Source: an uncultured Alphaproteobacteria bacterium
Lineage (GTDB): Bacteria > Pseudomonadota > Alphaproteobacteria > Parvibaculales > Parvibaculaceae
Length of the DNA: 44,360 nt
Direction of reading: 5' to 3'
Assembly (NCBI GenBank): GCA_903889655.1
Contig: CAISYL010000242.1
Span: 1 to 44,360, forward strand
Part shown: positions 9,568-27,093 of the stretch, piece after piece
How the letters are laid out: each line of letters begins with the position of its first letter
Position numbering within the stretch: position 1 is the stretch's first letter
Notes under the pieces: model-generated
Told to the model about the DNA's origin: nothing
Seen by the model: the letters and a program-made list of their open reading frames with translations, nothing else
The model's database searches: none
Translations under genes and position numbers: made by a program

Positions 9568-10473
9568 TCAGATTTTCTGGCTGACGCGTGCGATCGCATC
9601 CCGAAACCAGATATGCGCAACATCGGAGTTGCGGTTGGACGCCCAGAAAAGGGCGATGTCGAGGATTTCCGTCTTCACCGGCGGCGGCATGATTTGCAGC
9701 CCGGCGACATTCTGAAAGCGCCTTGCGAGGCGCTCCTGCACCAATGCGATCGCGGATGTAGCGCCGACGAGAAAGGGCAGGGCTGCGAAGCTCGGGCAGG
9801 TCAGGAGGACCGAAGGCTCGACGCGCTGCCTCTTCAATTGCATCGCTTCGGCACTCACGGCCGCCTCCCGACCCGGTTGATAGCGGACGTGGGGCAGTTT
9901 CCGAAATGTGGTGATGTCGATCGTTCCCTTGATCGTCGGATGACGGCGCGCAGCGATGCAGACGAGCTTCTCCTTGAAGAGCGTGCGTGATTGCAGGCCC
10001 TCGCTGAAGAGGCGCGAACGCGGCGCGATGATGACGTCGATTTTTCCGAGCAGCATATCGGGCATGGTACGGTCGGCGAGGTCCAGAACCTGGAGACGCA
10101 TGGACGGCGCCTCCTTCTGCATCAGCTTGAGGAGGGCCGGCACCAGCGTGACGGTCATATAGTCGGCTGAGGCGATGATGAATCGATGATCCGAAAGTCC
10201 TGGATCGAATGTGTCCGGAGCGACGGTCGCATCGATCTGGGCGATCAGTGCTGAAATCCTGGGCTTAAGCATTTCGGCCCGAGGCGTCATTTGCATCCTG
10301 CGGCCGACAAGCACAAGCAGATCGTCGTCGAAAGCGAGGCGCAAGCGTTTGAGCGCGCTGCTGACGGCCGATTGCGTGAGATTCAATCTGCCGGCCGCGC
10401 GAGTTACGTTCTGCTCCTTGAGCAGAATATCGAGCACGATCAGCAGGTTCAGGTCGAGATTTTTGTACATCAA
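9568..10473 (-). CDS. LysR-family transcriptional regulator
   Basis: A 301-residue LysR-type regulator. The N-terminal winged helix-turn-helix spans about residues 1-65 (NLLIVLDILLKEQNVTRAAG and NLTQSAVSSALKRLR), and an effector-binding domain follows. The N-terminus resembles the NodD/NahR/LinR branch, which often senses aromatic compounds. It is transcribed away from the amidohydrolase gene across a 154-bp AT-rich spacer, the classic arrangement for a LysR activator of the divergent catabolic operon. The inducer is presumably the pathway substrate or an early intermediate, which is inference. Confidence 0.88.
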   Translation of the reverse strand: MMYKNLDLNLLIVLDILLKEQNVTRAAGRLNLTQSAVSSALKRLRLAFDDDLLVLVGRRMQMTPRAEMLKPRISALIAQIDATVAPDTFDPGLSDHRFIIASADYMTVTLVPALLKLMQKEAPSMRLQVLDLADRTMPDMLLGKIDVIIAPRSRLFSEGLQSRTLFKEKLVCIAARRHPTIKGTIDITTFRKLPHVRYQPGREAAVSAEAMQLKRQRVEPSVLLTCPSFAALPFLVGATSAIALVQERLARRFQNVAGLQIMPPPVKTEILDIALFWASNRNSDVAHIWFRDAIARVSQKI

Positions 10474-10627
10474 GCGGATGACCTTCTGGCGTCGTCATGT
10501 AAGCGCCGAACTATAAGCAGAATTGATAATAACTATAATATTCATTGATTTCATAACTGAGCTCTGCGCGCCTAGCCTGTGTATCCGGTAACGAGACCGA
10601 GAAGCCAAATCAGGAGTGAGCGACAGA
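10474..10627. promoter_or_regulatory. divergent promoter region between LysR gene and amidohydrolase
   Basis: This 154-bp spacer contains a conspicuous AT-rich segment (about 10515-10558, with TTGATA, TATAAT and a repeated ATTGAT) in an otherwise GC-rich sequence. It is the expected site for both divergent promoters and for LysR binding. A CGGT-N6-ACCG inverted repeat lies at 10586-10599. I could not assign one clean -35/-10 pair with 17-bp spacing. Confidence 0.5.
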
Positions 10628-11677
10628 ATGAATCGCATCGACGTACATCACCACCTGATTCCGCCGACCTTCACGCGCGTGATGTCGGAGAGAGGTCTGA
10701 AGGAAGTGGCGGGAGCGCCGTTGCCGAACTGGACCGTCGAGCAGTCCCTCGCCGTCATGGACGCGAACGGAATCCGCACGGCCATCACCTCTCTCTCGGC
10801 GCCCGGCGTCTATTTCGGAGATCGGCAGGAGGCAAGGGATCTTGCACGAAGCTGCAATGAGTTCGCGGCCGACATGGCTGCGCGGCATCCGGGGCGGTTC
10901 GGCTCGTTTGCGGTTCTGCCTATGCCGTTTACCGAGGATGCCTGCCGCGAGGCGAGTTATGCGCTTGATGTGCTGAAGGCGGACGGTGTCGTGCTGCTCG
11001 GCAGCACCGAGGGGAAGTTTCTCGGCGATCCCCATTTCGACGAATTGATGGCGGAGCTCGACCGGCGCCATGCCGTCGTCTTCGAGCACCCCAACATCCA
11101 CAAGACGAGTAACGAACTCGACCTTGCGATGCCGGGATTCCTCGTCGAGTTCCTCTGCGATACGACGCGGGCTGCCGCGAACCTGATCCTGTCGGGGACG
11201 ATGGAGCGCTATCCGAATATTCGCTGGATCCTGTCTCACGCCGGGGGTTTTCTGCCCTTCATCGCCTGGCGTCTCTCGCTTGCCAATGCGTTGCCGCAAT
11301 TTGCCGTGTCGGCGCCGCAAGGCGTGTTGACCTATCTCCGGCGCTTCTATTTCGATACCGCGCTTTCGCCGTCTCCCTTCGCGATGGCGGCGTTGAAGGA
11401 GCTTGTCGACCCAAGCCACATCCTTTTCGGCAGCGATTTCCCGTTTGCACCGGCGATTGTTACGGGAATGGAGGTGGCGGCCCTGAAGGAGCTTGCGGTC
11501 TTCGACCGAGCCGCCAAAGCCGGTATCGACCGCGGTCATGCGCTGTCCCTGTTTCCCAAATATGCGCAGTCCCAGGAACCGGTCGTTCCCGCAGACAGAC
11601 CGCAGGCTGGGAATTGGCTCAGGAACAGGGCGGCCCGGGGCGTTGTCGGGATCGCGAACTGGCTCAGGGACCGCTGA
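10628..11677 (+). CDS. amidohydrolase-2 family protein (possible aromatic-acid decarboxylase)
   Basis: A 349-residue TIM-barrel metal enzyme of the amidohydrolase-2 (ACMSD) group. Metal-ligand motifs are present: H7-x-H9 in DVHHHLIP, a histidine in ILSHAGGFLPF, and the late aspartate in LFGSDFPFA. Members include gamma-resorcylate, 2,3-dihydroxybenzoate and 5-carboxyvanillate decarboxylases, ACMSD, and some ring-cleavage hydratases/hydrolases. Placed first in a meta-cleavage operon, it might decarboxylate a hydroxybenzoate-type substrate to a phenol, or act on a ring-opened product; the sequence alone does not decide. ATG 10628 is preceded by AGGAG at 11-base spacing. The GTG at 10616 overlaps that AGGAG and is unlikely to be the start. 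Confidence 0.85.
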   Translation: MNRIDVHHHLIPPTFTRVMSERGLKEVAGAPLPNWTVEQSLAVMDANGIRTAITSLSAPGVYFGDRQEARDLARSCNEFAADMAARHPGRFGSFAVLPMPFTEDACREASYALDVLKADGVVLLGSTEGKFLGDPHFDELMAELDRRHAVVFEHPNIHKTSNELDLAMPGFLVEFLCDTTRAAANLILSGTMERYPNIRWILSHAGGFLPFIAWRLSLANALPQFAVSAPQGVLTYLRRFYFDTALSPSPFAMAALKELVDPSHILFGSDFPFAPAIVTGMEVAALKELAVFDRAAKAGIDRGHALSLFPKYAQSQEPVVPADRPQAGNWLRNRAARGVVGIANWLRDR

Positions 11678-11733
11678 CGATGCGGCGGGATGTCCCGATG
11701 ATCCGCGCTTGACCGGAATGATCGTCGCTAGTA

Positions 11734-11753
11734 TCTGTAACGAACGTTCCAGA
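11734..11753. promoter_or_regulatory. 20-bp palindrome, candidate TetR operator
   Basis: The sequence TCTGTAACGAACGTTCCAGA is an imperfect palindrome with 8 of 10 mirrored pairs matching (TCTG/CAGA and AACG/CGTT arms). It ends 12 bp before the TetR-family ATG and abuts its AGGA ribosome site. Position, size and symmetry fit autoregulation by the TetR protein. A partly similar half-site (GTATCcGGTAACGA) lies at 10581-10594 before the amidohydrolase gene. Confidence 0.5.
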
Positions 11754-11765
11754 CAGGAATCGCTC

Positions 11766-12392
11766 ATGAAGAACACCGACATCATGTTGACCTTGAAGGA
11801 AGAACAGGGCGTTCAGTCCCGACGGCACATCCTAGAAGCAGCGCTCGATCTCATGGCGCAGCGGGGCTATGCCGGGGCCAGCATTTCGGCGATCAGCAAG
11901 CAGTCGGGCCTGCCGGTCAGCTCGATCTATTGGCATTTCGAGAGCAAGGAAGGCCTTCTGGCAGCCGTTCTCGAGGACGGGGCGCGTAACTTCGTCGACG
12001 GCCTGCCGAAATTTGAAAAGCTGAAAGGGTCGCATCGGGAACGTGTCGGCCTGCTGATGCGCGACCTGGCCCGGCGGCTCGGATCCCAGCCGCGTTTCCT
12101 GCGTCTGCTAATCCTGATGGGGCTCGAACACCGTCATTCGGATTCAGCCGTTCTGGAAAACATCCGGAGCATCCGCCGGCAGACGATCGAAGGGAGCGCT
12201 CGCTCCATCGCCAATACAATCCTTGCCGGACATCCCGAAAAGGATGAATTCGCGCGCAAGCTCGCGACCCTGTTGCTGGTCATCGCCGATGGCGCCTTCA
12301 TCGCCCATCAGATCGATCCGAATTTCAATCTCGAAGAGCTGTTCGAGCTCCAGTTCCAGGCGCTGGCGGCCATGCTTCCGCCCGACCGGTAA
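11766..12392 (+). CDS. TetR-family transcriptional regulator
   Basis: A 208-residue TetR/AcrR-type repressor. The N-terminal helix-turn-helix is clear (about residues 18-65: RRHILEAALDLMAQRGYAGA, then ISAISKQSGLPVSSIYWHFE, then SKEGLLAAVLEDG). The C-terminal ligand-binding half is all-helical and unrecognised. AGGA lies about 8 bases before the ATG. It sits in the same direction as the catabolic genes, between the amidohydrolase and the monooxygenase, so it is probably co-transcribed and acts as a second regulator beside LysR. The palindrome directly upstream is its likely operator. Confidence 0.9.
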   Translation: MKNTDIMLTLKEEQGVQSRRHILEAALDLMAQRGYAGASISAISKQSGLPVSSIYWHFESKEGLLAAVLEDGARNFVDGLPKFEKLKGSHRERVGLLMRDLARRLGSQPRFLRLLILMGLEHRHSDSAVLENIRSIRRQTIEGSARSIANTILAGHPEKDEFARKLATLLLVIADGAFIAHQIDPNFNLEELFELQFQALAAMLPPDR

Positions 12393-12425
12393 TCGCCAGA
12401 AACACAAAACGTGGAGGAAACCAGA

Positions 12426-13643
12426 ATGTCCGAAGCACTGAAGCAGGCACCCCGCACTGTTGAAGATCGGCCGACGCCGGAAGAACTCGTCCAGCGCGCG
12501 CGGGACATGATCCCGACATTGCGCGCGCGGGCGCAGCGCTGCGAAGTCGATCGCCGCGTTCCCGACGAGACGGTCGCCGAGTTCAAGCAGGCGGGATTTT
12601 TCCGCGTCCTCCAGCCTGCCATCTATGGCGGCTATGAGATGGATCCGATGGTGGCCTATGACATCACCATCGAACTCGCGAAGGGGTGCCCTTCGAGCGC
12701 CTGGATTTATGGTGTGGTCGGCGTTCATCAGTGGGAAATGGCACTCTTCCCGCGTCAGGTCACGGAGGAAATCTGGGGCAAGGATACCGAGGTCCTGATC
12801 TCATCCTCCTATGCGCCCACCGGAAAGATCGAACGCGCGCCGGGCGGCTATCGCCTGAGTGGCCGCTGGGGCTTTTCGAGCGGTTGCGATCATTGCGACT
12901 GGGTAATTCTCGGGGGCGGCCTTGTGCCGCCGAAAGAGGAAGGCGGTCTGCCTGACGCGGTCGTCGTCATTCTGCCGCGCAGCGATTATCGCATTGACGA
13001 TACCTGGCATGTTGCGGGCCTCGCCGGCACGGGCAGCAAGGACATCGTCGTCGATAATGCCTTCATTCCGGAATATCGGACGCATTCGGTCGTCACGCCT
13101 CACGCTGATCCGAGCGTCGTCGGCGAGGGCGGGCTTGCCGAGACCTACAAGCTGCCGTTCCCCGTCGTCTTCAGCAACGCGATTTCGACGGCGACAATTG
13201 GCATGGCTCTGGGGGCGCTCGACGTTTATCTCGAACAGTCCCGCAAGCGCGTGACGCTTTTCGACGGTGCGCAGGTCGCCAACGATCCCTTCGCCCAGCA
13301 TCGCGGCGCGGCGGCGGAAGCGGCCATCAACGGCATCCGCCTCCAACTCAGGGCGAATTTCGAGGAGATGCGGGAAATGGTCCGTAGGGGCGAGCCGATT
13401 GGCATGGATCGCCGGGCCCGGTATCGCTGGGATTCGGCCAACATGGCGCGCGTCTGTGCGAGGGCGGTGGCGAGCCTCTTCGAAGGCATGGGCGGTCGTT
13501 CGCTCTATCTCGACAATCCGATGCAGCGTTTCTTCCGCGACGTTCATGCGGCGACCGTTCACGGCTTCCTCAATCCGGAGAAGCTCGGCGTGAATTACGG
13601 CCGCGTGCAGCTCGGCCTGGACGGCACCGATCTGACAGTCTGA
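12426..13643 (+). CDS. flavin-dependent aromatic monooxygenase, HsaA/acyl-CoA dehydrogenase-like fold
   Basis: This 405-residue protein belongs to the two-component flavin monooxygenase group with an acyl-CoA dehydrogenase fold (HsaA, HpaB-type group D). Recognisable segments are FFRVLQPAIYGGYEMDP, CPSSAWIYGVVGVHQWEMA and GYRLSGRWGFSSGCDHCDW. Such enzymes use FADH2 or FMNH2 supplied by a separate reductase to hydroxylate a phenol to a catechol. Next to an extradiol dioxygenase, it should provide the catechol. No HsaB/HpaC-type reductase gene is in the window. The start has GGAGG 8 bases upstream. The gene is followed after 14 bp by the dioxygenase. An acyl-CoA dehydrogenase role is less likely from context. 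Confidence 0.88.
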   Translation: MSEALKQAPRTVEDRPTPEELVQRARDMIPTLRARAQRCEVDRRVPDETVAEFKQAGFFRVLQPAIYGGYEMDPMVAYDITIELAKGCPSSAWIYGVVGVHQWEMALFPRQVTEEIWGKDTEVLISSSYAPTGKIERAPGGYRLSGRWGFSSGCDHCDWVILGGGLVPPKEEGGLPDAVVVILPRSDYRIDDTWHVAGLAGTGSKDIVVDNAFIPEYRTHSVVTPHADPSVVGEGGLAETYKLPFPVVFSNAISTATIGMALGALDVYLEQSRKRVTLFDGAQVANDPFAQHRGAAAEAAINGIRLQLRANFEEMREMVRRGEPIGMDRRARYRWDSANMARVCARAVASLFEGMGGRSLYLDNPMQRFFRDVHAATVHGFLNPEKLGVNYGRVQLGLDGTDLTV

Positions 13644-13657
13644 ACGGGAGGAAGAAA

Positions 13658-14548
13658 ATGGCCAATCTGGAGATGGGATATGTCGGGCTGGAAGTCAGCA
13701 GCTTCGATAAATGGGAAGCATTCGCTCGCGATATTCTGGGCGTGATGGTCGCGCGCAATGCCGATGGAACGATGTCGTTCCGCATCGACAACCATGCGCG
13801 ACGCATCATCCTGACCGAGGGGCCACTCGACGATCTCGCCTATATCGGTTGGGAAGCGCCCGACCGGAAGGCGTTCGAAGAGGTTTTGGCCCGCCTGCGC
13901 GGCGCCGGTGTTGCTCTTGAATCCGGCAGCGCGGAGGAGGCCGCCCGCCGTGCCGTCGGCAGCTTCGTCCGGTTCATGGATCCGAACGGCATCCCGCAGG
14001 AGCTCTATGTCGATGCAGCGCAGGCCCCTGAGATCTTCAAATCGGAGCTCGTGCCGGAAGGCTTCGTTACGGAAGGCCAGGGCGTCGGTCATTTCGCTTT
14101 GGTGGTGAAGAACCGCGCGGAATCAACGCGGTTCTATTGCGATCTCCTGGGCATGCGCATCAGCGACTATATCGAAACGGAGATCATGGGGTTTCCGCTG
14201 GATCTGACCTTTCTTCATTGCAACCCGCGGCATCACACGCTTGCGCTGGCCGAGGTTCCGCTCCCGAAGCGCATCCAGCACATGATGTTGCAGGTGAAAT
14301 CGGAGCTCCGAGTCGGCAAGGCCTATGACCGATGCCTTGAGACCAAGCAACCGATAGCTCTCACGCTCGGTGAACATCCGAACGACCGGATGTTCTCTTT
14401 TTATGTCACCACGCCCTCGGGCTTCGATCTCGAATACGGAACGGACGGCATCGAAATCGACGATGCGAACTGGACGGTGAAGACGTTCGACAAATTGAGC
14501 ACCTGGGGGCATCGGCCCGTCGGTCTGCTTGGCGAAACGGCACGTTGA
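13658..14548 (+). CDS. extradiol ring-cleavage dioxygenase (VOC, BphC/HsaC type)
   Basis: A 296-residue two-domain type I extradiol dioxygenase. It cleaves a 3-substituted catechol next to the hydroxyls using Fe(II) and oxygen. The 2-His-1-carboxylate ligands align with those of BphC: H145 (GVGHFALVV), H208 (IQHMMLQV) and E259 (FDLEYGTDG). The conserved active-site histidine is present at about H193 (HHTLAL). The first VOC repeat (residues 1-120) lacks the metal ligands, as is normal. GGGAGG precedes the ATG. Pairing with an HsaA-like monooxygenase and a BphD-like hydrolase suggests a substrate bearing an alkyl, aryl or acyl side chain rather than plain catechol. Confidence 0.93.
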   Translation: MANLEMGYVGLEVSSFDKWEAFARDILGVMVARNADGTMSFRIDNHARRIILTEGPLDDLAYIGWEAPDRKAFEEVLARLRGAGVALESGSAEEAARRAVGSFVRFMDPNGIPQELYVDAAQAPEIFKSELVPEGFVTEGQGVGHFALVVKNRAESTRFYCDLLGMRISDYIETEIMGFPLDLTFLHCNPRHHTLALAEVPLPKRIQHMMLQVKSELRVGKAYDRCLETKQPIALTLGEHPNDRMFSFYVTTPSGFDLEYGTDGIEIDDANWTVKTFDKLSTWGHRPVGLLGETAR

Positions 14549-14570
14549 GTATCGTCGAAAGGATGGATGA

Positions 14571-15398
14571 ATGTCTTCGGGTTCCGCGGCCGAACACGTA
14601 AATACACCGATGCAAGAGATCGAGGTTGCCCGACTTCTCTTGGAAGCCCGACGCGAGCGCCGGCCGATTTCCTCGATAGCCCACCTGTTCCCCGCGGGTT
14701 CGCTCGAAGCGGCCTACCGCGTTCAAAAAATCAATGCCGATGCCGCGCGGGCGCACGGTCTGCGGCAAGTCGGACGCAAGATAGGCCTCACGTCGCTTTC
14801 TGTTCAAAGGCAGCTCGGCGTCGATCAGCCGGATTGCGGCGTCCTGTTTGAAGATATGTGGTTTAGCGACGGAGATGTCCTCCCGATCGAACGTTTGATG
14901 CAGCCGCGCATCGAGGCGGAAATTGCTTTTGTGCTGGGGCGCGATGTGACGGTGGATGGAGCATCGCACGAGCAATTGCAGGCGGCGATCGATCATGTCG
15001 TTGTCGCGGCCGAGATTGTGGACAGCGCCATTGCCGGCTGGAAGATCAGCCTAGTCGACACTGTTGCAGACAATGCCTCCTGCGGCCTGTTCGCGCTCGG
15101 TAATCAACGGCACAGTATCGCCGGGCTGGATCTCCGTCTTTGCGGCATGGTGTTGAGCCGAAACGGCGCCGATGCATCCTTTGGTGTCGGGGCAGCCTGT
15201 CTCGGTCATCCGCTCAATGCCGTGAAATGGTTGGCCGACGTGGCCGTGCGTCTCGGCGAGCCGCTCCGTGCCGGTGAGATTATCCTCTCCGGCGCTCTCG
15301 GCTCGATGGTCGACGTTGCCGCCGGCGATGTATTCCGCATCGAGGTGGCAGGACTTGGTGAGCTGGTCGTGCCCTTTTCGGCGGAGACGCGGTCATGA
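14571..15398 (+). CDS. mhpD: 2-hydroxypenta-2,4-dienoate hydratase
   Basis: A 275-residue member of the MhpD/DmpE/HsaE hydratase family (fumarylacetoacetate hydrolase fold), which adds water to 2-hydroxypenta-2,4-dienoate to give 4-hydroxy-2-oxovalerate. Family segments include [34 protein letters not shown] (metal-binding acidic residues) and [12 protein letters not shown]. The ATG at 14571 follows AAAGGA at 7-base spacing. Its stop overlaps the start of the acetaldehyde dehydrogenase (ATGA). It is the first of the three lower-pathway genes shared by all meta-cleavage routes. The symbol follows the E. coli mhp naming. Confidence 0.93.
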
Positions 15399-16333
15399 GG
15401 ACCAAGGTCGCGATCATCGGGTCGGGCAATATCGGAACCGATCTGATGATGAAGGTGATGCGTCTGTCGGAGGTGCTGGAGATGGGCGCCTTTGTCGGGA
15501 TCGATCCGGAGTCCGATGGGTTGAAGCGCGCCGCGCGCATGGGCGTACCGGTATCGGCTGAAGGCGTTGAAGGTCTGGTTGCGATGCCGGGCTTTGCCGA
15601 GATTGCGATCGTCTTCGATGCGACCTCGGCGGGCGCGCATGCGCATCATGACAAGGTGCTGAGGGCGCATGGCAAGCGCGCGATCGACCTGACGCCGGCC
15701 GCGATCGGGCCCTATACGGTGCCCCCGGTCAATCTCGATGCAAATCTCGATGCGCCGAACGTCAACATGGTGACTTGCGGCGGCCAGGCGACGATCCCGA
15801 TCGTTGCCGCCGTAAACCGTGTCGCGCCGGTGCACTATGCTGAGATCGTGGCGTCGATTGCATCGAAGTCGGCAGGGCCGGGGACACGCGCCAATATCGA
15901 CGAGTTCACCGAGACGACTTCGAAGGCGATCGAAGTTGTGGGCGGCGCCCGGCGTGGCAAGGCGATCATCGTGCTCAATCCGGCCGAACCGCCGCTCATC
16001 ATGCGCGATACGGTCTATTGCCTTTGCGACGACACCGATGAGGCGGCGGTCGAGGCCTCGGTCGAGGCGATGGTGACCGAGGTGAAGACGTATGTGCCGG
16101 GTTATCGTCTCAAGCAGAAGGTCCAGTTCGAGCGGGTGGGGCACAACAGCCGGCTTTATATCCCCGAGATGGGTGAAGCCTTCGCGGGGCTCAAGGTGAC
16201 GATCTTTCTCGAAGTCGAAGGAGCTGCGCACTACCTCCCGGCCTATGCCGGCAATCTCGATATCATGACCTCGGCGGCTCTCAGGACAGCGGAGCGCATG
16301 GTCGAGCGCGGGTTCCGGAGGGCCGCCGAATGA
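15395..16333 (+). CDS. mhpF: acetaldehyde dehydrogenase (acylating)
   Basis: A 312-residue CoA-acylating acetaldehyde dehydrogenase of the MhpF/DmpF/HsaG type, which converts acetaldehyde, NAD+ and CoA to acetyl-CoA. The NAD-binding [10 protein letters not shown] motif is at residues 9-18, and the catalytic cysteine is C128 in [10 protein letters not shown]. The length is normal. The 4-bp ATGA overlaps with the genes on both sides fit the known physical complex with the aldolase, in which acetaldehyde is channelled directly. Confidence 0.96.
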
Positions 16334-17355
16334 ATGCCTTCACGCCCCCGGCGAAGCTCTACATCCAGGACGTGACGCTACGCGACGGCATGCATGCGAT
16401 CCGGCATCGCTATGACATCCATCACGTCAAGGCGATTGCGAAGGCGCTCGACGATGCGAAGGTCGATGCGATCGAGGTGGCGCATGGCGACGGCCTTTCC
16501 GGATCAAGTTTCAACTACGGCTTCGGCGCACATACCGACTGGGACTGGATCGGCGCCGTGGCGGAGGTCATCAGCCATGCAAGCCTGACGACGCTTCTAT
16601 TACCGGGCATTGGTACGATCCACGATCTGAAGCACGCCTATGACGCTGGTGTTCGCTCGGTCCGCATCGCGACCCATTGCACCGAGGCCGATATCTCGAA
16701 GCAGCATATTGAAGCTGCGCGTAATCTCGGCATGGACGTGTCGGGCTTCCTGATGATGAGCCATATGAGCGCGCCCGATGCGCTGGCCCAGCAAGCCAAA
16801 CTGATGGAGAGTTACGGCGCCCATTGCGTCTACGTCACCGACTCCGGCGGTGCGCTCACTATGGACGGCGTTGCCGAGCGTTTTCTGGCTTATGAGCGGG
16901 TGCTGAAACCCGAGACAGAACGCGGCATCCACGCGCATCACAATCTGAGCCTCGGTGTCGCAAACTCGATCGCCGCCGTTCAGAACGGAGCAATCCGTGT
17001 CGATGCGAGTCTCGCGGGCATGGGAGCAGGGGCGGGTAACGCGCCGCTCGAGGTCTTCATCGCCGCCGCCGATGTCTATGGCTGGGAGCACGGCACCGAC
17101 CTCTTCGGGTTAATGGATGCCGCCGAAGACCTTGTGAGACCGCTTCAGGATCGTCCCGTCCGCGTCGATCGCGAGACGTTGAGTCTCGGCTATGCCGGCG
17201 TCTATTCGAGCTTTCTGCGTCACGCCGAAAAGGCTGCCGCCGATCAAGGACTCGATGTCCGGACAATCCTCATCGAGCTCGGGCGACGGCGCATGGTCGG
17301 CGGCCAGGAAGATATGATCCTGGACGTCGCTCTCGATCTCAAAAAGAAGAATTGA
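16330..17355 (+). CDS. mhpE: 4-hydroxy-2-oxovalerate aldolase
   Basis: A 341-residue DmpG/MhpE/HsaF-type aldolase. It splits 4-hydroxy-2-oxovalerate into pyruvate and acetaldehyde with a divalent metal. The N-terminal [11 protein letters not shown] motif carries the conserved Arg and metal-binding Asp, and [11 protein letters not shown] carries the metal-binding histidines. The C-terminal helical domain that contacts the dehydrogenase is present ([19 protein letters not shown]). Its start overlaps the dehydrogenase stop by 4 bp. Confidence 0.96.
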
Positions 17356-17398
17356 ATGGGCGGGGGTCTGAAGACCGCCGACAAAAATGGAATATCCG

Positions 17399-18244
17399 AT
17401 GACTCAATACACAGCCGAGAGCACGAGCGGGAACATTGAACTTGGCGATGTGACGCTCCGTTACCATGATGTGGGGACGGGCGATCCCGTGATCCTCCTG
17501 CATGGCGGTGGGCCAGGTGCTTCCGGCTGGAGCAACTACAATCGCAATGTCGATGCACTGGCGGCGCGCTTCCGTCTCTTCATCGTCGACATGCCCGGCT
17601 ACGGCAAATCCTCGAAGCCGGACATGAGCGACGATCCCTTTGGACATCGCGCGAATGTGCTTCTCGCCTTTGCCGATGCGCTCAAGCTTGAGCGGCCACA
17701 TCTGATCGGGAATTCGCTCGGCGGCGCCGTCGCACTCCGTATGGCGCTTGAAGCGCCGGAGAAGGTCGGCAAGGTGATCCTGATGGGGCCGGGCGGTGGC
17801 TTTTCGCCGCATCAGATCGCGCCAACCCAGGGACTGCTTGAGCTTCTCTTCTATTACGCCGGCGGTACGCCAACCCGTGAGAAGCTCGTCTCGTTCCTGA
17901 AGCACCTCGTCTTCGATCCGTCGGCAATCACCGACGATCTGATCGACGAGCGCTATAAGGCGAGTATCGAAGCCGATGTTCTCGCCTGTCCGCCCCTCGC
18001 CATTCCGAAGGGCCCCGTTCGCGGCGTCGATCTGTGGCGCGACCCGCGTCTTCAATTCTTGCAGAACGAAGTACTCGTAATCTGGGGTGCGGAGGACAAG
18101 GTCAATCCCGCCGACGGTGCATTGCTGTTCCAGAAGCTTATCCCGCGCTGCGATACCTACATCTTCTCCAAATGCGGTCACTGGGCGCAGTGGGAATATG
18201 CCGACAAGTTCAACGGCGTCGTAGCGGCATATCTATCAATTTGA
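17399..18244 (+). CDS. meta-cleavage product hydrolase (alpha/beta hydrolase, BphD/HsaD type)
   Basis: An alpha/beta hydrolase of about 281 residues (285 from the upstream ATG at 17387). It should hydrolyse the C-C bond of the ring-cleavage product to an acid and 2-hydroxypenta-2,4-dienoate. Counting from 17387, the triad is S110 (GNSLGGAV), D237 (GAEDKVNP) and H265 (CGHWAQWE), and the oxyanion loop is HGGGPGASGWSNY. This GGGPG pattern is typical of carbon-carbon hydrolases such as BphD, HsaD and MhpC. I prefer ATG 17399 because GGAATATCCG directly precedes it, the same ribosome-site context as dacC and the M23 gene here. It ends the catabolic operon. Confidence 0.93.
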   Translation: MTQYTAESTSGNIELGDVTLRYHDVGTGDPVILLHGGGPGASGWSNYNRNVDALAARFRLFIVDMPGYGKSSKPDMSDDPFGHRANVLLAFADALKLERPHLIGNSLGGAVALRMALEAPEKVGKVILMGPGGGFSPHQIAPTQGLLELLFYYAGGTPTREKLVSFLKHLVFDPSAITDDLIDERYKASIEADVLACPPLAIPKGPVRGVDLWRDPRLQFLQNEVLVIWGAEDKVNPADGALLFQKLIPRCDTYIFSKCGHWAQWEYADKFNGVVAAYLSI

Positions 18245-19029
18245 GTTGTTTCAGCCCATACCCAAACTTATTGAAGCCGACTAGGGGAGCGCTTTAGCCG
18301 CCGCTGCCCCCCGCAACAAAATCCTGCTCGGCAAGACGGCTGATTTGTTGAAATCCGTGGCCGGTGTGGGTTCGCGAAATAGCTGTGTCTTCGAGCCCCC
18401 GTGAGCCATTGAGGTTTTCCGGGGTACTGCATCAGTATGAAATTTGGGTAGCGTCTCAGTTTGAATCTTCGAGAGTATCCCACTCCGGTCCACAGCTAGT
18501 TGCGGGGCTTCCCGCTTTCTCGATGCGCCGCACCTCTGCTGCGGGCACGTGTGCAGGGGCATTCGCCGCAATCGGCCCGGATGATGCTGATGTCTTGGGC
18601 GCAGCCGACGCGATCGTCGAGATCGTCGACACGCCGTTCGGTTAGCGCCCCGTTCCGCGTGCACCATGATCCTACCGGGGACGGCGCGAATGTCGCTTTC
18701 GCGGTGCTCGACCGTCCGCGCGCCGAAATGCTTCGCAGCGTTAACAAGCCCGATCCGATGTTCGATATGACATATCCCTATGTCTTCGTTCGCCATCGAG
18801 GATGGGCTTTCGCTGGGCTGACGCTCCGTAAAACAAAAAGGGCTTCCGCCAGCTGATTGATCGTGCCCGGCTTTCGTTCCGGAGGGATACGAATCTGGAA
18901 AGTGGTGATGGCAGCAGGAATGGGCAAGAAAAGGGGTGGTTTGGGCATTCAGTTTTATTGCCTCGGCCCACGATACTGACGCTCAAGCAATCGCCCTCTC
19001 AGAGGGTGGCGTTAGTAGAAAGACATTCT
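18245..19029. other. 785-bp gene-free, possibly decayed stretch
   Basis: Between the C-C hydrolase and the SDR remnant. Overlapping short frames exist on both strands (for example minus-strand 18281-18796 and plus-strand 18500-18856), but none has a recognisable fold, a ribosome site or consistent codon use. Base composition is more mixed than in the flanking operons. It marks the boundary between the aromatic operon and the Baeyer-Villiger cluster. I see no intact gene, RNA or insertion-sequence ends. Confidence 0.5.
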
Positions 19030-19331
19030 GTGTCAAAAACTGAGATCGCAATTGTGGCAGCCGGTGGCCGGGGAATTGGCCGGAAGACCGTGATGCTAGC
19101 CGAGGACGCGATTGTCCTGCAGCCAGACGTCAGCTTCGTGACGCGCGCGCGAGGCGCCTTCGTGGGCTCCGGCGCGGAGAATATCCAATACCTAATCAAC
19201 AACGTAGAGGCGTCCTCGGGTGCCGGCTCGGCGACGATTGCCGAAGCCGAGTTGGAAAATTCGCTAGCTGGATATGCAGCTCGCCGAGCCACGGCGTCGA
19301 ATGTCCCCCAACAACCCATTTGGAGCCGCCC
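19030..19331 (+). pseudogene. decayed short-chain dehydrogenase fragment
   Basis: From a GTG at 19030 the frame reads SKTEIAIVAAGGRGIGRKTV, closely matching the N-terminus of the intact SDR at 27230-27988 (SDSKIAIVTGGSRGIGRNTV). A second match follows at about 19165-19250: IQYLINNVEASSGAGSATIA, then EAELENS, against the intact protein's FDYLVNNAGNSSAASFESIT, then EAEMDAL. The roughly 80 residues that should lie between are collapsed to about 25, the catalytic YxxxK region is missing, and the NNAG motif has become NNVE. The two nucleotide sequences also align base by base near the start. This is a broken relative of the intact gene, deleted internally and truncated. Confidence 0.7.
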
Positions 19332-21110
19332 ATGATAGACAAGGAAACCACTAAGGCCAGGTATCGCGCCGAGCGCGACAAGCGGCTGCGGGCGGATGGA
19401 ACTGCGCAATATCACCGCCTTGCCGGCGAGGTGGTCGCTGATCCCTATGCTCCCGTTGAGCCCCGTGAACCGAAAACCGACCACGTGACTTTCGCTTTCG
19501 TCGGCGGCGGCTTCGCAGGCTTGTTGACAGGCGCGCGGTTGGTGGAAGCCGGCGTCAAGGACGTGCGCATCGTCGATAAGGCCGGCGACTTCGGCGGTGC
19601 CTGGTACTGGAACCGCTATCCCGGGGCCCAGTGCGATACGGCGTCGATGGTCTACATGCCGCTATTGGAAGAGACGGGGCACAGGCCAACCGAGAAATAC
19701 GCACACGCCCCGGAAATTCGGGCTCAGTGCCAACGGATCGGCCAGCACTATGGCCTCTATGACCACGCCCTGTTTCACACCGAAGTGACAGACCTGACGT
19801 GGGACGATGCCCAGTCGGTCTGGCGCATCGAGACTGATCGCGGCGACGCCTTCACTGCCCAGTTCATCGGTCTAGGCACAGGCCCTTTGCACGTGCCGAA
19901 ATTACCAGGCATTCCGGGTATCGAGAGCTTCAAGGGCCACAGCTTCCACACGAGCCGCTGGGACTACGACTACACCGGCGGCGATCCACTGGGCGCGCCG
20001 CTCAGCAAATTGGCCGACAAACGCGTGGCTATCATCGGTACCGGCGCGACGGGCATTCAATGCGTGCCGCACCTGGCCAAGACCTGCGGTCAGCTTTTCG
20101 TCTGTCAGCGCACCCCTTCCTCCGTCGACGTGCGCGGAAATGCACCGATTGATCCGGACTGGTTCGCCAGCATCGCCACGCCCGGTTGGCAGCAGCGCTG
20201 GCTCGAGAACTTTACTGACAACCAGACCGGAGGGTTCGCAACGACCGAGGACCTGGTGCAGGACGGCTGGACCGATATGTGGCGCCGCGTCCGCGCCCGC
20301 ATTGAGAACATTCCGGCCGAGGAGCGCGATCTCGCGGTCATCGTGGAAGCTCTCGAGGACTCCGATTTCGAGAAGATGGATGAGATCCGCGCGCGGGTCG
20401 ACGCCGTGGTGGACGACGCGGCGACCGCGCAACGCCTGAAAGCCTGGTACCGTCAGCTCTGCAAGCGCCCGTGTTTCCACGATGCCTATTTGCAGGCCTT
20501 CAACAATTCCAATGTCTCCTTGCTAGACACCGACGGCAAGGGCGTCGAACGGATCACCGAGACAGCCATTGTTGTAGCCGGGGTCGAATACCCCGTCGAC
20601 TGCGTTATCTACGCCTCGGGATTCGAAATGGGCTCGCCCTATACCGAGCGTGCGGGATTTGACTTGGTCGGTCGGGAAAGTTTGGCCCTATCTGCCGCCT
20701 GGTCCGATGGGATGCGCAGCTTGCACGGCGTTTATGTGCACGGCTTTCCCAACGCCTTTTTCGTGCAAGCGACCCAGGGTGCGGCCCTGATCTCAAACGT
20801 GCCGCATAACTACACCGAGGCTGGGCGCTCCATTGCCCTGGTGGTGGCTGAAACCTTCAAGCGCGGCGCCTCAAGGGTCGAAGTCACCCAGGACGGCCAG
20901 GACAAGTGGGTCGAAGTCCTGCTCGCTGGCGGTCCCCGCAATCTTCTGAGCTTACCCGACTGCACACCGGGCTACTACAACAACGAAGGCCAGCCGCTCA
21001 GTCCGGCCGCCCGCTACGCCGTCGGGTACCCCCAAGGGCCGGCCGCCTACTTCCGCTATCTGGAGGGATGGAGAAAGTCCGGAGCGTTCGAAGGGCTGGC
21101 CTTTGAGTGA
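19332..21110 (+). CDS. Baeyer-Villiger monooxygenase (FAD/NADPH, class B)
   Basis: A 592-residue type I Baeyer-Villiger monooxygenase, which inserts oxygen next to a ketone to form an ester or lactone. The first Rossmann motif is GGGFAG at residues 58-63. The class fingerprint FxGxxxHxxxW is exact at F200-W210 (FKGHSFHTSRWD), and the second Rossmann motif GTGATG is at 236-241. The extended N-terminus before the FAD site resembles the PAMO/steroid/cyclododecanone monooxygenase branch rather than the shorter cyclohexanone enzymes. ATG 19332 has GGAG 6 bases upstream. The gene is followed after 40 bp by an MDR oxidoreductase; with the SDR and patatin-like genes it suggests an alcohol-ketone-lactone route. 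Confidence 0.94.
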   Translation: MIDKETTKARYRAERDKRLRADGTAQYHRLAGEVVADPYAPVEPREPKTDHVTFAFVGGGFAGLLTGARLVEAGVKDVRIVDKAGDFGGAWYWNRYPGAQCDTASMVYMPLLEETGHRPTEKYAHAPEIRAQCQRIGQHYGLYDHALFHTEVTDLTWDDAQSVWRIETDRGDAFTAQFIGLGTGPLHVPKLPGIPGIESFKGHSFHTSRWDYDYTGGDPLGAPLSKLADKRVAIIGTGATGIQCVPHLAKTCGQLFVCQRTPSSVDVRGNAPIDPDWFASIATPGWQQRWLENFTDNQTGGFATTEDLVQDGWTDMWRRVRARIENIPAEERDLAVIVEALEDSDFEKMDEIRARVDAVVDDAATAQRLKAWYRQLCKRPCFHDAYLQAFNNSNVSLLDTDGKGVERITETAIVVAGVEYPVDCVIYASGFEMGSPYTERAGFDLVGRESLALSAAWSDGMRSLHGVYVHGFPNAFFVQATQGAALISNVPHNYTEAGRSIALVVAETFKRGASRVEVTQDGQDKWVEVLLAGGPRNLLSLPDCTPGYYNNEGQPLSPAARYAVGYPQGPAAYFRYLEGWRKSGAFEGLAFE

Positions 21111-21150
21111 CCGCCCATCAACCCCGGATCGGGACGGAGAGGATTCAGTA

Positions 21151-22290
21151 ATGACGGACAAGAACCAGGGCCAAGGTCTGCAGCTACGCTCGCTGGTAAC
21201 GGAAGCGGGCGAGCTGCAGCTCTCGCTTGCCAGAGTCGATATCCCGACGCCCGGGGCAGATGAAATCCTTGTCCGTGTCGAGGGCTCGCCGATCAACCCC
21301 TCCGACCTCGGATTGTTGCTCGGCCCGGCCGACCTCTCGACCCTGAGCGTCACCGGCGCCGGCGAGGACGTGGTGGTCAGCGCGAATATTCCCTCGCAAT
21401 TCGCACGCGCCATCTCACCCCGCATCGGTTTGTCCCTGCCGGTCGGGAATGAGGGCGCGGGTGTGGTCGTCGACGCGGGGGCGGACTCCAAAGGTTTGGT
21501 CGGCAAAACCGTCGCTATTTCTGGCGGCGCTATGTACTCCCAATATCGCGTCGCGAAAGCGATTGAGGCGCTCTTGGTCCACGACGATGCGACGCCCAGG
21601 GATGCCGCCTCGTGCTTCGTCAATCCTCTCACGGCGCTCGGCATGATCGGTACCATGCGCATGGAGGGTCACACCGCGCTTGTCAACACCGCCGCTGCCT
21701 CCAACCTCGGCCAGATGCTCGTAAGGACTTGCCTGAAGGACGGCGTCGATCTGGTGAGTATTGTCCGCAAACCCGATCAGGTCGCGCTGCTGAAAGGCCT
21801 CGGCGCCAGACACGTGGTCGACTCCTCCGCATCGGGCTTCATGGATGATCTGATCGCCGCCCTAACAGAAACCGGTGCCACCATCGCCTTCGACGCCATC
21901 GGCGGCGGTAAGCTCGCTGCCCAGATCCTGGCCGGCATGGAGGCGGTGGCTGTCAGAAAGGGCGGCGCGTTTGGGCCCTATGGCTCGACCATCTTCAAGC
22001 AGGTCTACATCTACGGTGGCCTCGACACCGGACCCACCGAGCTTCTTCGCGCGTTCGGTATGAAATGGGGCCTGGCCGGCTGGCTTCTCCCATACTTCAT
22101 GGAAAAGGTTGGTCCCGCCGAGGTAGGCAAGTTGCGCCAGCGCGTTGCCGATGAGCTGAAAACCACTTTCGCCAGCCGCTACACCGCCGAGATCAGCCTC
22201 CTCGAAGCGCTCCAGCCCGAGGTGATTGCCGCCTACCACGGGAAGACCACGGGCGAGAAATACCTGATCAATCCCAATAAAGGTCTCTAG
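21151..22290 (+). CDS. MDR-superfamily NAD(P)-dependent oxidoreductase (quinone oxidoreductase/alcohol dehydrogenase-like)
   Basis: A 379-residue medium-chain dehydrogenase/reductase. The GroES-like N-terminal domain shows DEILVRVEGSPINPSDLGLL, and the nucleotide-binding domain centres on ALVNTAAASNLGQMLVR and later FDAIGGGKLA. The zinc-ligand cysteines of classical alcohol dehydrogenases are not apparent, so it is probably a zinc-free quinone-oxidoreductase-like enzyme. ATG 21151 has GGAGAGGA 7 bases upstream; a TTG at 21103 overlapping the previous stop is a weaker choice. In context it may oxidise the alcohol or reduce an enone feeding the Baeyer-Villiger step; the substrate is unknown. 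Confidence 0.85.
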   Translation: MTDKNQGQGLQLRSLVTEAGELQLSLARVDIPTPGADEILVRVEGSPINPSDLGLLLGPADLSTLSVTGAGEDVVVSANIPSQFARAISPRIGLSLPVGNEGAGVVVDAGADSKGLVGKTVAISGGAMYSQYRVAKAIEALLVHDDATPRDAASCFVNPLTALGMIGTMRMEGHTALVNTAAASNLGQMLVRTCLKDGVDLVSIVRKPDQVALLKGLGARHVVDSSASGFMDDLIAALTETGATIAFDAIGGGKLAAQILAGMEAVAVRKGGAFGPYGSTIFKQVYIYGGLDTGPTELLRAFGMKWGLAGWLLPYFMEKVGPAEVGKLRQRVADELKTTFASRYTAEISLLEALQPEVIAAYHGKTTGEKYLINPNKGL

Positions 22291-24271: not shown

Positions 24272-24413
24272 TCCGTGCGACGGCGGCCGGCCGCCAATCA
24301 GGTTGGTGTCTCTGCGCAGGCGCTGAAGCGCATGGCTGAATCGATTTGTGCGGGGCGATGAGCGCTTCCGCGAAAGCGGCACAACAGATGTGAACTTCGA
24401 TGAAGGTGGCGCG

Positions 24414-24863
24414 ATGATTACGATTCACGTGAACGGTACGCCGCAACAGGTGGATGCCGAGGATGGAATGCCTTTGCTGTGGGCAATCCGGGACGTGCTG
24501 AATATGACCGGCACAAAGTACGGCTGCGGCGTGGGCGCATGCGGCGCGTGCACCGTGCTGATCGACGGCGTCGCAATGCGCAGCTGTTCTTTTCCGGTGG
24601 GCCTTGCCGCGGGTAAGGACGTCACGACGATAGAGGGACTCAAGACTGGCGATACGCTGCACAAGGTGCAGCAGGCTTGGATCGATGCGCAGGTGCCACA
24701 GTGCGGCTATTGCCAGTCGGGACAGATTATGGCCGCTGTCGCGTTGCTTCAGGAGAAATCACGGCCGACCGAAGCCGACGTTGAAGAGGCGATGACAAAC
24801 ATTTGCCGTTGTGGCGCTTACACACAAATTCGTGCGGCCATTAATGCCGCGGCGAGAGCGTGA
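24414..24863 (+). CDS. iorA: isoquinoline 1-oxidoreductase-like small subunit, [2Fe-2S] protein
   Basis: A 149-residue protein with two [2Fe-2S] clusters, the small subunit of a molybdenum hydroxylase. The plant-ferredoxin type motif is YGCGVGACGACTVLIDG plus a later C, and the helical second motif is QCGYCQSGQ with CRCGAY. ATG 24414 has AAGGTGG 4-5 bases upstream. It is followed after 13 bp by the large subunit. The pair belongs to the IorAB-type membrane-linked group of xanthine dehydrogenase/aldehyde oxidase enzymes. Confidence 0.92.
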   Translation: MITIHVNGTPQQVDAEDGMPLLWAIRDVLNMTGTKYGCGVGACGACTVLIDGVAMRSCSFPVGLAAGKDVTTIEGLKTGDTLHKVQQAWIDAQVPQCGYCQSGQIMAAVALLQEKSRPTEADVEEAMTNICRCGAYTQIRAAINAAARA

Positions 24864-24876
24864 AGAGGTAACAAAC

Positions 24877-27093
24877 ATGATCTCTCGTCGTTTTGTGATT
24901 TTCAGCGGCATCGCTGCTGCGGGCGGTTTGGCGGTTGGCTATGCGTTGACACCGTTTTCCACGCTTGAGCGGGCGGCGCAGCTTGTAGCGAAGGAAGGGG
25001 CAGCTTCGCTGGGGGCATGGGTGCGCATCGGCAGCGACAACTCTGTGACGGTCATCGTGCCACACTCCGAAATGGGGCAGGGCGTTCATACGGCACTGCC
25101 GATGATGTTGGCCGAGGAGCTCGATGCCGATTGGTCGCTTGTCAGTATGGAACAGGCGCCGCCGGACGTGGCGTTTGCGAACGGCGCTATGGTACGCGAA
25201 TATTTGCGCGGTGACATGTCGATCCCGGGTTGGATGTCGGGCGTTACCGAATTCGGCTCACGGAAGATTGCGGAATTGACGCATCTGCAGATCACCGGCG
25301 GAAGCACGGCCGTGCGCTATACCGGCGTGCGGGCAATGCGCGTTGCTGGTGCCGCTGCACGCCGGATGCTGATCAAAGCGGCGGCTGCCGCCTGGAATGT
25401 TTCCGAAGGCGAGATCGAAGCGAAGCAGAGCCGCCTTTCGCATAAGTCTGGAAAAAATGCCACCTATGGCGAGATGGCTGTCGCGGCGGCGGCATTCGAT
25501 CCGCCGGTCGATCCGCCACTCAAGGCCAAGAAGGACTATAAGATCGTCGGTACGCCGATGAAGCGCTTCGACATCCCTGCTAAAGTCGACGGCAGCGCGA
25601 AGTACGGTATCGATGTACGGCAGCCGAATATGAGCTTTGCTGTTATTGCAGCATCGCCGGTCTATGGCGGAACCCTGAAGTCCGTGGACGAGAAGCCGGC
25701 AATGGCGATGCGCGGCGTCAAGAAGGTCGTGAAGTTTCCCGATGCGGTAGTTGTGGTGGCCGACAACACCTGGCGAGCGAAGGAGGCCTTACTCGCACTG
25801 CAACCGATTTGGGACGATGGCGAGAACGCCAACCTCACTCAGGCCTCGATCTTCGAGGGGATGACTGCTGCTCTGAAGAAGGGAGACCTTACCGAGGATT
25901 ACGGAAACGGCGATGTCGACGACGCGTTGAAGAGCGCAAAGAATGTCGTCGAGTCGCTCTATCGCGTGCCGTACCTCGCGCATGCGACGATGGAAGTGAT
26001 GAACTGCACGGCGCACTTCGAGGGCGATAAGCTGACCCTATGGGGCGGCTTTCAAGACGGCCTCGGGTCGCGGGCGGCGGCAGCGAAGTTTGCGGGGCTG
26101 GCGATCGAAAATGTGACGTTACATCATATGGCGATGGGCGGCGGTTTCGGGCGGCGCGGGCGGCAGAGGCAGCGAACGATCGATTACCTCGAACGTGCAA
26201 TCGCAGTCGCACGGCAGGTCGAAGGGCCGGTGCAACTCGTCTTTACTCGCGAAGAAGACATGACGCAGGACAACTATCGTCAGGCATCGGTCGCGTGGAT
26301 GAAGGCGGCGCTTGACGACGACGGCAAGGTGAACGCTTGGCTGCATACGTTTACCGAGAAACATGACCCGCCAGAGGCGGTCCGCGTGAATTATGGTTTT
26401 GCAAACCAAGCGGTGCGGTATGCGACCGGTACAAACCCCGTCCCGTGGGGTTCGTGGCGGAGTGTAGATCATTCGCAGCACGGATTTTTCATTGAGTCGT
26501 TCATGGACGAACTCGCTTATGCCGCGAAGACGGATCCGTTCGAGTTCCGGCGGGCGCATCTGGCGGACGCGCCGCGGCACAGGGCGGTTCTGGAACTCGC
26601 GGCTTCGATGGCGGGGTGGAGCAATCCGCGCCAGCCAGGCCGGGCGATGGGCATCGCGATCCGCGAGATCTTCGGCACGATCGTGGCACAGGTAGCGGAG
26701 GTCTCGCTCACGAACGATGGGCGGGTGCGCGTCCATCGAATGTGGAGTGCTGTCGATCCGGGTGAGGTCATCAATCCGGCGACCTTTACCGCGCAGATTC
26801 AGGGCGGCGCGATTTACGGTTTAACGGCAGCACTCTACGGCGAAATCTCGATCGACAAGGGCCGCGTCGTGCAACAGAACTTTCCGGACTATGAGATGGT
26901 GCGGATGGCGGACGCACCGGAACATGAGGTCCGCTTCATCGAGTCAGGTGCCCGTACGGGCGGTGCTGGTGAGCCCGGAACAGTGCCTGTGGCGGCAGCC
27001 GTCGCGAATGCCGTGTTTGCACTTACGGGGCAGCGGGTGCGCGAATTGCCGTTGATGAAGGCGAAGTTTATTGGGAAGACAGGTGGCTCATAG
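24877..27093 (+). CDS. iorB: isoquinoline 1-oxidoreductase-like large subunit, molybdopterin cofactor-binding
   Basis: A 738-residue molybdopterin subunit of the IorB type (aldehyde oxidase/xanthine dehydrogenase superfamily). It begins with a Tat-like twin-arginine signal (SRRFVIFSG plus a hydrophobic run), so the enzyme is probably exported folded. Family motifs include VPHSEMGQGVHTALPMMLAE, GGGFGRRGRQRQ and ESGARTGGAGEPGTVPVAAA; the last contains the Glu region of the active site. These enzymes hydroxylate N-heteroaromatics or oxidise aldehydes and pass electrons to a cytochrome c. No cytochrome c or XdhC-type maturation gene lies next to it here. The start at 24877 has GAGG about 8 bases upstream. 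Confidence 0.92.
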   Translation: MISRRFVIFSGIAAAGGLAVGYALTPFSTLERAAQLVAKEGAASLGAWVRIGSDNSVTVIVPHSEMGQGVHTALPMMLAEELDADWSLVSMEQAPPDVAFANGAMVREYLRGDMSIPGWMSGVTEFGSRKIAELTHLQITGGSTAVRYTGVRAMRVAGAAARRMLIKAAAAAWNVSEGEIEAKQSRLSHKSGKNATYGEMAVAAAAFDPPVDPPLKAKKDYKIVGTPMKRFDIPAKVDGSAKYGIDVRQPNMSFAVIAASPVYGGTLKSVDEKPAMAMRGVKKVVKFPDAVVVVADNTWRAKEALLALQPIWDDGENANLTQASIFEGMTAALKKGDLTEDYGNGDVDDALKSAKNVVESLYRVPYLAHATMEVMNCTAHFEGDKLTLWGGFQDGLGSRAAAAKFAGLAIENVTLHHMAMGGGFGRRGRQRQRTIDYLERAIAVARQVEGPVQLVFTREEDMTQDNYRQASVAWMKAALDDDGKVNAWLHTFTEKHDPPEAVRVNYGFANQAVRYATGTNPVPWGSWRSVDHSQHGFFIESFMDELAYAAKTDPFEFRRAHLADAPRHRAVLELAASMAGWSNPRQPGRAMGIAIREIFGTIVAQVAEVSLTNDGRVRVHRMWSAVDPGEVINPATFTAQIQGGAIYGLTAALYGEISIDKGRVVQQNFPDYEMVRMADAPEHEVRFIESGARTGGAGEPGTVPVAAAVANAVFALTGQRVRELPLMKAKFIGKTGGS

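Follow-up and report, generated by a model that had tools for sequence, protein, structure and literature searches.

A meta-cleavage operon headed by an ACMSD-like amidohydrolase in an uncultured alphaproteobacterium, with a possible role in the breakdown of a substituted phenolic acid

The stretch of DNA analyzed here, referred to below as the window, is contig CAISYL010000242.1 (44,360 nucleotides, forward strand) of assembly GCA_903889655.1, from an uncultured alphaproteobacterium of the Parvibaculaceae. Between positions 10628 and 18244, the window carries a meta-cleavage operon whose first gene encodes an amidohydrolase-2 enzyme, here called AmhA. The eight-gene set that the original prediction placed in this range is borne out, with all reading frames open and the expected families matched; a gene for a LysR-type regulator sits just outside the range. 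The features are as follows.

9568..10473, minus strand: LysR-type regulator, divergent from AmhA (Pfam HTH_1 and LysR_substrate)
10628..11677, plus strand: AmhA, amidohydrolase-2 (ACMSD-like), probable decarboxylase (PF04909, 99.1 bits)
11766..12392, plus strand: TetR-family regulator, in line with the downstream genes (PF00440)
12426..13643, plus strand: HsaA-like flavin-dependent aromatic oxygenase, the ring hydroxylase (NCBIfam HsaA; PDB 2rfq, E 3.7e-94)
13658..14548, plus strand: BphC/HsaC-like type I extradiol dioxygenase (TIGR03213; H145, H208, E259)
14571..15398, plus strand: 2-hydroxypenta-2,4-dienoate hydratase, BphE/DmpE-like (TIGR03220, PRK11342)
15395..16333, plus strand: acylating acetaldehyde dehydrogenase, BphG/DmpF (TIGR03215)
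16330..17355, plus strand: 4-hydroxy-2-oxovalerate aldolase, BphF/DmpG (TIGR03217)
17399..18244, plus strand: meta-cleavage product hydrolase, HsaD/BphD-like (NCBIfam HsaD; S108, D233, H261)

With these starts, neighboring genes in the TetR-to-hydrolase run are separated by 14-43 bases or overlap by 4 bases, and 88 bases lie between the end of AmhA and the start of TetR. Alternative starts are present at 10616 for AmhA (GTG) and at 17387 for the hydrolase.

Two of the lower-pathway enzymes pass the cut-offs of their family models, namely, the acetaldehyde dehydrogenase (480 bits against 282.25 for TIGR03215) and the aldolase (570.2 against 286 for TIGR03217). Scores below the cut-offs were obtained for the oxygenase (HsaA, 404.8 bits, cut-off 450), the dioxygenase (TIGR03213 for BphC, 290.6, cut-off 366.45), the hydratase (TIGR03220, 255.5, cut-off 408.8; PRK11342, 293.3, cut-off 350), and the hydrolase (HsaD, 280.6, cut-off 400; BphD, 211.4, cut-off 462.15). 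H145, H208, and E259 of the dioxygenase were found at the positions first given for them, and we take them to be the iron-binding 2-His-1-carboxylate triad of type I extradiol dioxygenases. In the hydrolase, S108 lies within a GNSLGG motif, and D233 and H261 are placed, by position and motif, to complete a Ser-Asp-His triad, which presumably is the catalytic one. The best characterised matches of the oxygenase, dioxygenase, and hydrolase all accept bulky substituents. In the set that was searched, the closest relatives of these upper enzymes are 49% (HsaA), 46% (BphC), and 51% (hydrolase) identical to those of the window.

The partner of an HsaA-type oxygenase is a flavin reductase. No match to PF01613 was found on the window's contig, and four were found elsewhere in the genome (on C197, C125, C270, and C144); the C197 protein scores 149.2 bits with the HsaB model, whose cut-off is 230. 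The ring-opening route had been described as complete. The upper enzymes and the lower trio are indeed there, but since the operon encodes no flavin reductase, on which an HsaA-type oxygenase depends, "complete" is too strong. A second HsaA+BphC pair, 44% and 36% identical to the window's, is located on C53 of the same genome. Its neighbors (L125, G000:C53:1-20000) are a reductase-like protein, a resistance-nodulation-division (RND)-type protein, a DUF1302 protein, and a BphD-like hydrolase, and this locus is perhaps a steroid-type cluster.

Searches of NCBIfam, PHROGs, and Pfam gave AmhA no family beyond PF04909. Its metal ligands H7, H9, H154, and D270 form a His-x-His, His, Asp set, in agreement with the sets of NbaD and iso-orotate decarboxylase (IDCase), and H204 could also be placed. 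These five residues and R215 are all conserved in 101 of 103 AmhA copies, the two others being L034_11268 and, with a masked start, L051_4940. The first of these, a second AmhA copy of Pseudomonas yamanorum (L034:11268), has lost several metal ligands and is perhaps a pseudo-enzyme. The AlphaFold2 model of AmhA has a mean predicted local distance difference test (pLDDT) score of 89.2. Its best VIA-align match is 2f6k (Z 42.9), an amidohydrolase that bears no functional name, followed by the gamma-resorcylate, 5-carboxyvanillate, ACMSD, 2,3-dihydroxybenzoate, and iso-orotate decarboxylases, mostly tied at Z 34.2-37.4; LigY (Z 31.1-31.5) and LigJ (Z 29.7-30.3) fall below these decarboxylases of the amidohydrolase superfamily (AHS), a ranking that does not by itself exclude families that stand low in the match list or are missing from it. 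Profile searches gave a similar picture: after 2f6k come ACMSD, the best named match with 140 bits, LigW, gamma-resorcylate decarboxylase, and iso-orotate decarboxylase; LigJ and LigY score far lower. The available part of PMC6305744 describes a carboxylate-binding His/Arg/Asp set in the iso-orotate, gamma-resorcylate, and 5-carboxyvanillate decarboxylases; H204, R215, and D270 of AmhA align to it, and the His-Arg spacing, 11, is identical. Together, the sequence comparisons and the structural model suggest that AmhA is rather probably a decarboxylase.

AmhA neighborhoods were then compared across genomes. The genome collection was scanned with a five-sequence alignment (A1) and two peptide patterns, the best 80 of 281 relatives (79 loci) being kept, and further loci were added from plasmid records. 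Neighborhoods were labeled by a uniform tblastn procedure, a hydroxylase being an MhpA- or HsaA-type gene within 11 kb. The core set comprises 39 copies at least 58% identical to AmhA, at 36 loci, with the window excluded and near-duplicate strains included. A hydroxylase gene is present within 11 kb of 35 of these 39 copies, compared with 9 of 56 copies below 50% identity; restricted to loci with flanks of 16 kb or more, the figures are 32/35 and 6/35, respectively. A ring-cleavage cassette is also nearby for 28 of the 35 hydroxylase-linked copies. Among the 39, BphC and BphD are found together near 22 copies, at least two lower-pathway genes near 20, and a cassette made of a VOC dioxygenase and a fumarylacetoacetate-hydrolase-family protein (VOC+FAH cassette) near 9, with both cassettes near 3. 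AmhA thus belongs to the pathway, given this conserved neighborhood, and the possibility raised originally, that it acts outside, does not agree with the linkage to ring hydroxylases.

The association of AmhA with meta-cleavage genes therefore recurs in public genomes and is not unique to the window. AmhA-bearing genera include Pseudomonas, Burkholderia, Rugamonas, Massilia, Cupriavidus, Acinetobacter, Sphingomonas, Caulobacter, Rhizobium, Agrobacterium, and Myxococcus. Its distribution in the window's class is nonetheless sparse, since only 4 of 385 drawn genomes, the window's own included, carry AmhA at an E value of at most 1e-95. The window AmhA falls inside a 47-row AmhA clade (SH-like approximate likelihood ratio test [SH-aLRT] value of 98). 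Among the 39 copies, only that of Caulobacter hibisci lies beside an HsaA-type oxygenase, the other 34 hydroxylase-linked copies having an MhpA-type neighbor; three more HsaA-type neighbors occur among copies below 50% identity (L017, L052, and L094). The window has no match to an MhpA-type flavin adenine dinucleotide (FAD) hydroxylase at an E value of 1e-10 and has the HsaA-like oxygenase in its place. It is thus a rare, HsaA-type version of an AmhA-linked meta-cleavage module that recurs across genomes. Among the matches listed, no characterised syntenic operon and no known function for this gene set were found in the open-access literature.

AmhA is likely to act upstream of ring opening. 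The conserved neighborhood, the swapped cassettes, and the Tat (twin-arginine translocation)-like signals of relatives support the order of events first proposed. A single AmhA lies between both cassettes at three loci (L037, L038, and L143, the last in G299). At L143 (G299:C6:122500-142400), each of the two cassettes has its own TetR and MhpA-like gene, and at L023 both cassettes are nearby, together with a second, partial AmhA at the end of the locus. In the AmhA phylogeny, the 26 labeled rows (20 of type I and 6 of type II) require at least three changes of cassette, and 36 rows require at least two changes of hydroxylase type. Tat-like leaders, called by a simple home-made rule rather than by a trained predictor, were detected in 4 of the 40 copies with 58% identity or more (window included), the C. 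hibisci copy among the four, in 6 of 7 copies at 50-58% identity, and in 3 of 8 copies below 50% in aromatic loci, compared with 11 of 2060 codon-shuffled controls; the split of the copies below 50% uses an earlier labeling, which was biased because most distant loci had no computed gene clusters. The products of ring cleavage form in the cytoplasm, and exported AmhA copies should therefore act at an earlier step. As separate observations, a Tat-leader-like AmhA on a plasmid of Sphingomonas sp. NY01 (L015:15043-18210) adjoins a self-sufficient P450-reductase fusion of 1055 amino acids, and many distant Tat-like leaders (L054-L097, mostly Bradyrhizobium) are preceded by a conserved cysteine-rich stretch.

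We tentatively propose, at slightly less than an even chance, that the genes of the locus serve to degrade a substituted phenolic acid by meta-cleavage, with AmhA acting first, as a decarboxylase. AmhA would strip the ring carboxyl from a 6-R-salicylate, with a hydrophobic alkyl or aryl R at C6, to give a 3-R-phenol. The HsaA-like oxygenase, using reduced flavin from a reductase encoded elsewhere, would add the ortho hydroxyl, and the BphC-like enzyme would open the resulting 3-R-catechol next to R. The BphD/HsaD-like hydrolase would split the cleavage product into R-COOH and 2-hydroxypenta-2,4-dienoate (HPD), which BphE, BphF, and BphG would convert to pyruvate and acetyl-CoA. The hydratase-aldolase-dehydrogenase trio and the BphD-like hydrolase imply a 3-substituted catechol without further ring oxygen; if this arises from a decarboxylated precursor, the starting compound would therefore be a 2-hydroxy-6-R-benzoate. 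We infer such a 6-R-salicylate as a possible substrate, though a doubtful one. Chemistry of this kind has a precedent in the fungal PatG, not compared here with AmhA, which decarboxylates 6-alkylsalicylates to 3-alkylphenols according to the accessible part of PMC7305150. Near the copies at least 58% identical, genes for an acyl-CoA synthetase (10/39) and for a DUF1302 protein (13/39) occur, and L022 has a FadL-like protein that scores below its model's cut-off. These neighbors suit a hydrophobic or fatty acid-like R; no acyl-CoA synthetase, DUF1302, or FadL-like gene was found beside the window operon itself. For the FAH cassette, dihydroxy acids such as orsellinate (orcinol pathway) would be fitting substrates. 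In a broader reading, which we consider rather unlikely when all of its parts are taken jointly, AmhA would represent an undescribed family of entry decarboxylases, both cytoplasmic and Tat exported, with at least two interchangeable cassettes: BphC/BphD/HPD for 6-substituted salicylates and VOC/FAH/acyl-CoA synthetase for 2,4-dihydroxy relatives of the orsellinate or olivetolate type. The pathway would then be a widespread one for plant, lichen, or fungal phenolic lipids or polyketide acids, with HsaA replacing MhpA in the window.

Several observations count against an AmhA that decarboxylates the substrate ahead of ring opening. Four of the 39 copies have neither a hydroxylase nor ring-cleavage cassette genes nearby (L013, L015, L026, on a 7.5-kb contig, and L039). 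In G040, a genome of the window's class, HsaA-BphD-BphC genes (49%, 44%, and 45% identical to the window's, respectively) and a divergent BphE-G-F set occur with no AmhA match; therefore, the core can exist without AmhA. Near this HsaA-BphD-BphC set (L133, G040:C8), we also noted a salicylyl-CoA 5-hydroxylase-like protein (279 bits, cut-off 1078). As for the enzyme itself, its closest structure has no functional name, and enzymes other than decarboxylases may also have the His/Arg/Asp set, LigJ and LigY not having been aligned residue by residue. Moreover, Glu8, Glu8, and Glu19 are metal ligands in the gamma-resorcylate, 2,3-dihydroxybenzoate, and 5-carboxyvanillate decarboxylases, respectively (PMC8187880, available in part), and H7 replaces this Glu in AmhA. 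The assignment of the head gene to an ACMSD/resorcylate-decarboxylase superfamily thus stands with respect to the ACMSD-like His-x-His metal site but not as a special likeness to resorcylate decarboxylases. The cassette-swap argument is weakened because 300 label shuffles gave 4 to 6 cassette changes, all above the observed 3, so that AmhA and cassette are also partly co-inherited; the AmhA tree also carries a long-branch warning, with 17 of 59 inner branches open. Finally, Tat-like leaders are also found in 27 of 48 distant copies below 50% outside aromatic loci, and the leader rule detects no export signal in the window AmhA, for which the Tat argument is indirect.

AmhA could instead act after ring opening, like OpaD, PraH, and ACMSD, and decarboxylate the acyclic product formed by cleavage of a carboxylated catechol, ahead of the BphD-like hydrolase. 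This order stays in contention because the His-x-His site is ACMSD-like and OpaD works on an opened ring, namely, on 3-carboxy-2-hydroxymuconate-6-semialdehyde in the o-phthalate operon of Pseudomonas sp. PTH10 (PMC6362003, accessible in part). The metal site shared with NbaD and ACMSD, as far as the partial sources describe it, the top rank of ACMSD among named profile matches, and the partial co-inheritance of cassette and AmhA all favor it. It fits poorly with one AmhA clade that goes with two ring-cleavage cassettes, with the single AmhA between both at three loci, and with the Tat-like leaders of several relatives, including the C. hibisci AmhA near HsaA; the dioxygenase is also BphC/HsaC-like, a 2,3-dihydroxybenzoate-type enzyme not having been directly compared. 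We regard action after ring opening as unlikely.

It also seems improbable that AmhA acts upstream as a hydrolase of a lactone, ester, or depside, or on another chemical group, freeing a phenol for HsaA. The AHS is mostly hydrolytic, as stated in the available portion of PMC8187880, LigY and LigJ have the same fold (Z 29.7-31.5), 2f6k, the closest structure, bears no functional name, and exported relatives would suit hydrolysis ahead of uptake. Both profile and fold scores nevertheless rank decarboxylases above LigY and LigJ, and R215 with H204 and D270 fits carboxylate binding, as described in the part of PMC6305744 available. A second steroid-type (Hsa) pathway, or one for another large phenol, with AmhA as a bystander under its own LysR, is very unlikely. 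In its favor, the HsaA and HsaD models score highest for the oxygenase and hydrolase, C53 holds a second HsaA+BphC pair beside reductase-like, RND, and DUF1302 proteins, AmhA stands 88 bases before TetR with LysR divergent, and G040 has the core without AmhA, but the HsaA and HsaD scores lie under their cut-offs, no other steroid gene adjoins the operon by eye (most of the outer window not having been scanned with family models), and ring-hydroxylase genes accompany 35 of 39 AmhA copies elsewhere.

If AmhA is indeed an entry decarboxylase, a gene set carried by Pseudomonas, Burkholderia, Acinetobacter, Rhizobium, and other bacteria would gain a function and a substrate class, that is, 6-substituted salicylates and orsellinate-type acids. 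An amidohydrolase would then be a common entry point to interchangeable ring-cleavage cassettes, and the family would be a source of decarboxylases for alkylsalicylic acids.

The LysR and TetR regulators probably control AmhA and the TetR-to-BphD unit. LysR relatives occur near 4 of the 39 AmhA copies at least 58% identical, and a TetR relative (37% identical) is present in a plasmid cluster of Rhodococcus fascians A21d2 (L018). An internal promoter before TetR was discarded, as the promoter scan gave no excess and no site in the AmhA-TetR gap, and so was a palindrome in this gap as the TetR operator, matches with at most one mismatch being equally frequent in shuffled sequence. Downstream, the Baeyer-Villiger monooxygenase (BVMO) and dehydrogenase genes at 19332-22290 were rejected as part of the operon because about 1.1 kb of apparently noncoding sequence intervenes; no BVMO homologue covering half of the query was found near AmhA relatives in L019-L097, and L008 has a partial match (26%). 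This intervening stretch (18245-19331) has no convincing gene and separates the operon from the BVMO, the dehydrogenases, and further genes. A short frame at 18958-19335 resembles by eye a short-chain dehydrogenase fragment, and the stretch may be a rearrangement scar. Farther on, at 24348-27093, two genes, judged by eye, may encode the 2Fe-2S and molybdopterin subunits of a two-subunit molybdenum hydroxylase.

Compared with known systems, AmhA has the fold of the AHS phenolic decarboxylases (gamma-resorcylate, 2,3-dihydroxybenzoate, and LigW; Z 34.2-37.4) and shares their carboxylate-binding His/Arg/Asp residues (PMC6305744, in its available part), whereas their metal ligand at the position of H7 is a Glu (PMC8187880, likewise). 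The opa operon of Pseudomonas sp. PTH10 (OpaC, OpaD), as far as the accessible text of PMC6362003 goes, also combines an ACMSD-like metallo-dependent hydrolase, with the His-x-His metal site of AmhA, with an extradiol dioxygenase and a meta-cleavage lower pathway; unlike our proposal for AmhA, OpaD acts after ring opening, and the opa route starts with a Rieske dioxygenase instead of an HsaA-like oxygenase. The Hsa pathway for steroid rings A/B (HsaA, HsaC, and HsaD) similarly relies on an HsaA-like oxygenase, a type I extradiol dioxygenase, and an alpha/beta hydrolase, but the window enzymes score below the equivalog cut-offs, and the operon lacks a reductase gene and adds AmhA and an HPD-type lower trio. 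Closer in content are the AmhA-MhpA-BphC-BphD-BphEGF clusters of Pseudomonas, Burkholderia, Rugamonas, Massilia, Cupriavidus, and Sphingomonas, which have the same AmhA clade, BphC, BphD, and trio as the window, with an MhpA-type FAD hydroxylase rather than HsaA. Their BphC proteins are 34-39% identical to the window's (46% for a second BphC in L048), and several clusters add DUF1302/DUF1329 genes. Caulobacter hibisci KACC 18849 (L030), despite another gene order and a Tat-like leader on its AmhA, has counterparts of AmhA (65% identical), HsaA (49%), BphC (35%), and BphD (49%), as well as an aldolase and an acetaldehyde dehydrogenase that are 85% and 82% identical to those of the window.

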